DNA of 64,000 bases from NCBI RefSeq assembly GCF_018139545.1, contig NZ_JAGSPJ010000008.1, forward strand, positions 1-64,000. The letters run 5' to 3'. The notes below the pieces were generated by a model. The model was not told the origin of the DNA. It saw nothing but the letters and a program-made list of their open reading frames with translations, and did no database searches. A program made the position numbers and the translations under genes. How positions within the stretch are numbered: position 1 is the stretch's first letter; each line of letters begins with the position of its first letter. Shown here piece by piece: positions 44,230-44,387 of this stretch. This stretch comes from Affinundibacterium fentianense. Its GTDB lineage: Bacteria > Pseudomonadota > Gammaproteobacteria > Burkholderiales > Burkholderiaceae_D.

Positions 44230-44330
44230 AAAAAAACCCGACACTGGAGGGTGCCGGGTGAAAAAAAACGCCAATCGAATGGGAACAAATGGCGCCCCGC
44301 TTAGGGAGGAACAGCGGTAAGCATATTGCC
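44230..44330 (-). ncRNA. Putative small RNA downstream of engB with two CCUCC loops
   Basis: On the minus strand three hairpins follow one another. First is CCGCT/AGCGG with loop GTTCCTCCCTA (44297-44317). Second is CGCCA/TGGCG (44269-44294) followed by T8. Third is ACCCGGCAC/GTGTCGGGT with loop CCTCCA (44236-44259) followed by T7. The third stem is fully paired only as minus-strand RNA (a G-U there is an A-C mismatch on the plus strand). Two tandem terminators on the strand opposite to engB and hemB have no gene to serve unless an RNA is made here. CCUCC loops suit pairing to Shine-Dalgarno sequences. The 5-prime end is uncertain; no clear promoter was found. Confidence 0.6.
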
Positions 44331-44387
44331 TATCCCTATGAGCCTAATTTGAAAAAAAAGTTTCATTAACCTGATAAATTTTTAGAT

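Follow-up and report, generated by a model that had tools for sequence, protein, structure and literature searches.

A predicted anti-hemB-family small RNA between engB and hemB in an Undibacterium-like genome, and its sigma-E-type promoter motif

The window analysed here, a stretch of 64,000 nt from the genome of Affinundibacterium fentianense, carries engB and hemB on the plus strand and, in the gap between them, a predicted small RNA (sRNA) on the minus strand (Table 1). EngB of this genome is 91% identical to that of U. macrobrachii, U. flavidum and U. seohonense, and the genome is therefore Undibacterium-like. The predicted RNA is about 103 nt long and has three main hairpins, the last of which is an intrinsic terminator; the fold starting at 44331 adds one small 5' hairpin. 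The initial annotation of this DNA had described three minus-strand hairpins with T8 and T7 runs and two CCUCC-bearing loops, all of which are present in the sequence and in the fold. The open reading frames (ORFs) bore out the plus-strand orientation of both neighbours, and stem 3 indeed contains a G-U pair in the minus-strand RNA that becomes an A-C mismatch on the plus strand.

Table 1. Positions of the predicted sRNA, its parts and its neighbours in the window
Feature	Positions	Strand	Description	Support
engB (GTPase YsxC/YihA)	43460..44203	+	syntenic anchor, convergent with the sRNA	ORF, relatives, synteny
predicted anti-hemB-family sRNA	44229..44331	-	5' end (44331) predicted by the promoter motif; 3' end within the U-run	RF02837 45.2 bits; R2 40.2 bits; R1 64.4 bits (R1 itself includes the window sequence); fold z -4.24
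terminal U7, possible Hfq-binding tail	44229..44235	-	Hfq role suggested by ncS04 (PMC5688073, excerpt)	sequence
hairpin 3, intrinsic terminator	44236..44259	-	loop CCUCC at 44246-44250, not conserved; followed by T7	
hairpin 2	44267..44296	-	CCC in loop; followed by T8, not conserved as a terminator	stem 2 covariation in relatives
hairpin 1 (CCGCU...AGCGG)	44297..44317	-	conserved CCUCCC loop at 44304-44309	loop conservation, unpaired probability, covariation
sigma-E (RpoE/AlgU)-type promoter motif	44337..44364	-	-35 GAAACTT, -10 TCATA	
hemB	44388..45401	+	neighbour on the other side in the window's order	ORF, tblastn

The fold energy of the 103-nt RNA was -37.4 kcal/mol (z -4.24), and none of 200 shuffles was equal or better. 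A 123-nt stretch gave a z-score of -3.40 with a best fold that lacked hairpin 1, and the plus strand of the engB-hemB gap gave -2.27, a level reached by 6 of 200 shuffles. In the 103-nt RNA, the CCUCCC of loop 1 had an unpaired probability of 0.98-0.99. A bare terminator scan was not significant (2 found versus 1.3 expected), and a sigma-70 promoter was rejected, none being found in 43900-44800. Elsewhere in the window, an SAH riboswitch (RF01057, 40.5 bits) was found at 12640-12766 on the minus strand, directly upstream of the minus-strand ORF 11173-12591, which appears to encode an adenosylhomocysteinase; this arrangement is an ordinary one.

The default Rfam scan of the window returned nothing at the sRNA site. 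A permissive scan matched the anti-hemB family (RF02837) at 44228-44320 on the minus strand over the full model, positions 1-81 (45.2 bits, E 1.2e-9). This score is 4.3 bits below the gathering cut-off of 49.5 bits, which is the curators' threshold and not a biological feature. Because the E-value, the place and model R2 (see below) agree, the window RNA was taken as a divergent member of RF02837. In all likelihood the minus strand encodes an sRNA here, the Undibacterium-type copy of a family that was already catalogued. Two other families were tried and rejected: the Betaproteobacteria toxic sRNA (RF02278; 20.4 bits, E 0.061, cut-off 50) and ar14 (RF02344; 18.2 bits, E 0.2, cut-off 58.8).

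The covariance-model search against Rfam that the initial annotation had proposed thus led to a known family, below its cut-off, and the interpretation given there was incomplete in that the family is in Rfam and, by name, in print as ncS04 (PMC5688073, excerpt). In the available text of that source, anti-hemB is an alternative name of ncS04 of B. cenocepacia, an RNA of 105 nt detected on Northern blots, with a 3' end determined by RACE; we equated it with RF02837 by this shared name, not by sequence comparison. The same excerpt cites Hfq binding for ncS04 and reports unchanged expression in seven growth conditions, none of them named there as envelope stress. Anti-hemB is also listed for B. 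pseudomallei (PMC3521395, excerpt). Our literature search, which took in few subscription papers, found no paper joining hemB, engB and an sRNA, and none treating sX13 and ErsA together.

RF02837 proved to be widespread in the window's order. It was matched at E <= 0.001 in 299 of the 399 sampled genomes (129 of 158 genera) and above the cut-off in 244; three of 14 control genomes also matched, below the cut-off, so the weak matches include noise. Of the 30 loci with the best scores in the order, 27 have both engB and hemB as neighbours, and the window sRNA likewise lies between the two, on the opposite strand. The window's genome has a second RF02837 match, which counts against the mechanism favoured below; this match was absent from the R2 matches at E <= 1. 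Within the window's own family, RF02837 was weak in four genomes (G302, G331, G386, G412) and gave no match in two (G091, G136), so the RNA appears to have been lost or strongly changed there.

Conservation at close range was assessed with blastn, which matched 25 of 60 genomes, the window's included, all of the same genus, and with the 80 closest EngB loci, which come from Oxalobacteraceae and from assembled metagenome genomes named to higher rank only. The engB-hemB gap was readable at 78 of these loci (L223 and L229 had no gap), and three (L254, L262, L268) were removed from the 79 gaps that these make with the window's own before alignment and before the second promoter count described below. 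When the window was aligned with 28 relatives, loop 1 was conserved, the closest ones lacked the CCUCC of the terminator loop, and only close ones kept the T-run that follows hairpin 2, most others having GTTATT or GTTACT. At least two CCTCC were present in 31 of the 78 gaps; among those listed, the extra copy was mostly on the 5' side of stem 1. Given this variation of the T-run and of CCUCC, the two terminators and two CCUCC loops of the initial annotation exist in the window, but what relatives conserve is one terminator and one loop, the CCUCCC of loop 1.

Two alignments of RNAs hand-chosen from the available loci, one of 55 from the order (A1) and one of 36 from elsewhere in the class (A2), were used for wider comparison. 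CCUCCCU was present in loop 1 of 49 of the 55 and 29 of the 36 RNAs, and CCUCCCUGAGCGG, which belongs to the loop and stem 1, in 41 and 20, respectively. Stems 1 and 3 were paired in 94.4% of cells across the 55 RNAs, with double changes in 11 of 14 pairs and a covariation score of 0.308 versus 0.119 for shuffled alignments (0 of 500 shuffles as high). For stem 2, double changes were found in six of eight pairs among 29 sequences in one register, a set that does not include the window. When stems 1 and 2 were taken together, the number of further pair types did not exceed the shuffled level (112 of 500). Covariation among relatives, which the initial annotation had suggested checking, is present in stems 1-3. 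The comparative evidence indicates that the window RNA is a real sRNA and a further member of a known family.

The sigma-E-type promoter motif was counted in more than one form; as the promoter definition was drawn up after inspecting alignments, the counts are not fully independent. Stricter, earlier forms were present in 66 of 79 gaps from close relatives and the window (shuffle mean 0.84), at 14 of the 31 other loci that belong to the order, and in 13 of 48 rows from elsewhere in the class, some of which are duplicates. The second definition (GAACTT with one mismatch allowed, a spacer of 15-18, TCnnA) yielded the motif in 71 of 76 close-relative loci, the window included (mean of 100 shuffles 3.06; opposite strand 2). 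Among the other loci of the order, 18 of the 23 used in the count with shuffles had it (shuffle mean 0.74; opposite strand 0), and 25 of 31 when all were taken; elsewhere in the class it preceded 23 of 36 RNAs (shuffle mean 0.86; opposite strand 2). The distance from the -10 TC to the aligned stretch, which starts up to 7 nt before hairpin 1, had a median of 21 nt in close relatives, 23 nt in other loci of the order and 29 nt in the rest of the class.

Within the window's genome, a strict form had four matches, the window's included, versus one for the reversed pattern. The rpoE gene of this genome (317.6 bits) has GGAACTTTTAGACTTCGGACGAGGTCAGA upstream, the same promoter type as the sRNA, and this element resembles the autoregulated rpoE promoter type. 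An ErsA locus (L285) carries TGAACTT...TCATA upstream, and the motif was not found upstream of sX13 (L295, L296) or Spot 42 (L086, E. coli). ErsA is described as AlgU/sigma-22-induced (PMC5819304, excerpt). Two loci of the order without the motif (L026, L053) have a TATATGATA or TATATCATA stretch upstream of the sRNA instead, and the steady expression of ncS04 might be explained if B. cenocepacia is of this type. The motif upstream of the sRNA, in its relatives and at an ErsA locus is what we regard as new.

Outside the order, RF02837 was searched for in 369 class genomes, of which 168 matched at E <= 0.001 and 20 were above the cut-off (two of these 20 in the window's order). Neighbours were analysed in 129 of the 168 matching genomes, namely those listed, minus the order members G000, G084 and G049; EngB was sought in 160 matching genomes and 80 others, and only places above the cut-off were used. 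An EngB place was available for 114 of the 129 genomes and lacking for 15. In 84 of the 114, the distance of the RF02837 match from the 3' end of EngB was -60 to 2000 nt (median 60), with convergent orientation in 79 of the 84; in the other 30 the match lay elsewhere. Of the 45 genomes made up by these 30 and the 15 lacking an EngB place, at least six have the match next to polA (L060, L062, L063, L064, L068, L084). At the loci tested elsewhere in the class, hemB was not found beside the sRNA, and polA often was. A second new result is that elsewhere in the class the predicted RNA is usually at the engB 3' end, often beside polA, which is the place of ErsA, sX13 and Spot 42.

The flanks of engB were fetched from 60 matching genomes drawn at random out of the 139 with an EngB place, and from 50 of 64 non-matching ones, likewise random. 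An Rfam scan of 30 of the former and all 50 of the latter, several shortened by contig ends, recovered anti-hemB at E <= 0.1 in 20 and four flanks, respectively, and Spot 42 in none of the 80. Model R1, built from the order only and containing stems 1 and 3 only, matched 38 of the 60 flanks of matching genomes at E <= 0.01 (44 at 0.1), a rate that is not independent since these flanks were chosen by RF02837, and seven of the 50 non-matching flanks (nine at 0.1). The engB 3' locus is not universally occupied by a recognisable family member. Tandem anti-hemB-like copies about 200 nt apart were observed beside engB, four in L111 (495-1233, minus strand) and two each in L101 and L107. In one gammaproteobacterium, a c-di-GMP-I riboswitch (77.9 bits) is situated between the sRNA and polA (L072, 2037-2121, minus strand).

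Kinship with the sRNAs known from this place was assessed with model R2, whose training set was the 36 RNAs of A2. Families f63 and f210, in which Rfam's models of sX13 and ErsA exceed their cut-offs, contributed none of them; the Pseudomonas and Xanthomonas assignments of genomes follow from which Rfam models pass. The RNAalifold consensus of A2 gave the terminator stem only, so R2 models sequence plus that stem. R2 recovered the window RNA (40.2 bits, E 2.3e-8) and nothing else at E <= 1 in the whole 4.2-Mb genome. At 77 of the 80 close-relative loci it placed an RNA on the strand opposite to engB and downstream of it, two other matches having E ~0.5. It found sX13 with full-length matches (31.0 and 26.3 bits), ErsA over model positions 42-100 only (25.5 bits) and Spot 42 of E. 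coli over the terminator only (12.4 bits, E 0.11). These hits form a chain of similarity and not independent proof, because RF02837 served to select the training loci, among which are bridging sequences.

In whole-genome searches with R2, the best match was sX13 in G442 and G594 and ErsA in G591, that is, in three of three genomes. Their E-values were weak (1.7e-4, 0.0027 and 0.0037, respectively), with runners-up at 0.023, 0.0083 and 0.33. Among 274 class genomes, the Rfam ErsA model matched 10; in nine, engB is convergent and no more than 900 nt away, and the tenth match, the sole one above the cut-off, has polA. The sX13 model matched 12 of the 274, seven beside polA or engB and five where neither was found. 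All four tandem copies of L111, which lie between engB and polA, matched anti-hemB (35.9-41.8 bits); one of them also matched sX13 (48.3 bits) and another ErsA (37.1 bits). In the phylum sample, R2 matched 41 of 299 genomes at E <= 0.01, and polA or engB adjoins 10 of the 12 fetched loci from the class outside the order and none of the seven from outside the class. Four loci outside the class (L331, L332, L336, L337) have CCTCCC or complement-rich stretches with terminator-like ends, away from polA and engB; these are perhaps other anti-Shine-Dalgarno sRNAs.

The window RNA itself matched neither the ErsA (RF01719) nor the sX13 (RF02232) model at E up to 10, and the ErsA model had no match in the window's genome at E <= 0.001. 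Membership of Spot 42 (RF00021) was rejected, there being no match at E up to 10 and a terminator-only R2 match in E. coli. The initial annotation's counterpart of Spot 42 and ErsA is thus upheld as to position, class relatives being convergent at the engB 3' end and often beside polA, but not as to Spot 42 sequence: Spot 42 gave no match, and what sequence kinship exists points to ErsA and sX13. The clan field is empty for RF02837, RF02232 and RF01719 in the Rfam outputs. We lean towards the view that anti-hemB, sX13 and ErsA represent one ancient sRNA gene at the engB 3' end in beta- and gammaproteobacteria, ancestrally sigma-E-controlled, with polA as its old neighbour and hemB as that in the window's order. 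In enterics, Spot 42 may be a strongly changed or displaced successor of this engB-anchored gene.

The likeness to ErsA and sX13 could instead be convergent, C-rich hairpins with a terminator having arisen repeatedly at a favourable place. Spot 42, which occupies the same place, fits this reading with its terminator-only match and its absence from the 80 engB flanks, as do the restricted ErsA match, the silence of both Rfam models on the window RNA, the five sX13-model matches away from polA and engB, and the location of the R2 matches outside the class. R2 was, moreover, trained on RF02837-chosen loci, and its sX13 and ErsA matches are weak (runner-up of G594 at E 0.008). Against convergence stand the genome-wide best matches to sX13 or ErsA in all three genomes, the L111 array, whose copies match all three models, the identical place and orientation, and the promoter motif common to the window and an ErsA locus. 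We consider convergence a serious but rather unlikely alternative to common origin. The sX13 paper asks in print whether the polA locus of other bacteria encodes like-acting sRNAs (PMC3771888, excerpt), and the wider result bears on this question. Should the common origin hold, what is known about the targets of ErsA and sX13 could be tried out in many species.

With regard to function, the explanation that we hold to be likely is that of an anti-hemB sRNA acting in trans in envelope stress. RpoE (sigma-E) would most likely transcribe it from the element at 44364-44337, and the product would be an Hfq-bound RNA of ~103 nt. Its unpaired CCUCCC loop, together with the lesser C-rich loops, would pair with Shine-Dalgarno regions of the GGGAGG type in trans-encoded mRNAs and so block ribosome binding during envelope stress. 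The RNA shape, family, conservation, covariation in relatives and promoter motif were computed; we infer RpoE use, Hfq binding in the window's organism, the targets and the direction of regulation. CU-rich sRNAs of B. cenocepacia are predicted to cover ribosome binding sites (PMC5688073, excerpt), and repression by sX13 needed both C-rich loops and G-rich target motifs, as far as the available text goes (PMC3771888). Likeness to these RNAs argues by analogy for ribosome-binding-site masking by the window RNA. In the same sX13 text, regulation was not regained on compensatory changes in loop and target, and Hfq was not required. The explanation is weakened by this outcome and the Hfq-free action of sX13, by the RF02837 score under the cut-off, by the steadiness of ncS04 in seven conditions and by the six of 31 loci of the order without the motif. 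RpoE would be a testable regulator for an RNA for which no trigger emerged from the seven Burkholderia conditions in the available excerpt (PMC5688073).

The Rfam name suggests a different role, that of a cis-antisense RNA on the engB-hemB transcript controlling hemB. In favour of this role, the sRNA is complementary over its whole length to the intergenic RNA between engB and hemB, and 27 of the 30 top-scoring loci of the order have both neighbours. Control of hemB in cis nevertheless seems improbable, and was rejected as the main role: at the tested loci elsewhere in the class the neighbour is often polA and hemB was not found, conservation is concentrated in the loop and stem 1, and the sRNA overlaps neither the hemB ORF nor its start. 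That the stretch is only a transcription terminator or structural DNA, as the plus-strand direction of engB and hemB and the chance-level terminator scan might suggest, is highly implausible in view of the promoter motif, the covarying stems, the loop conservation and the family member proven as a transcript (PMC5688073, excerpt).

Lastly, we compared the trans-acting sRNA proposed here with known systems. The double-hairpin RNAs of RF02278 resemble it in a CU-rich unpaired stretch and a terminator. Spot 42 (RF00021) resembles it only in place and orientation relative to engB (yihA); it differs in that no sigma-E motif was found in E. coli and no match extended beyond the terminator, and it is under CRP/cAMP control with galactose or carbon targets (PMC3771888, excerpt). 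sX13 (RF02232) of Xanthomonadaceae has three hairpins with C-rich loops and is located beside polA, but had no sigma-E motif that we could find upstream and is reported to be Hfq-independent (PMC3771888, excerpt). ErsA (RF01719, Pseudomon-1) shares C-rich loops, a sigma-22/sigma-E-type promoter motif and the engB-side place; it differs in its polA-engB locus, the window having hemB where polA would stand, and its L285 copy lacks the CCUCCC hairpin 1. From anti-hemB (RF02837/ncS04), the window RNA differs in its score just under the cut-off, a longer linker with T8 after hairpin 2, and the presence of the sigma-E-type motif that some loci of the order lack. It shares with this family a full-length model match, the place between engB and hemB, the orientation, the CCUCCC loop, the terminator and a similar length (103 nt predicted, 105 nt for ncS04).
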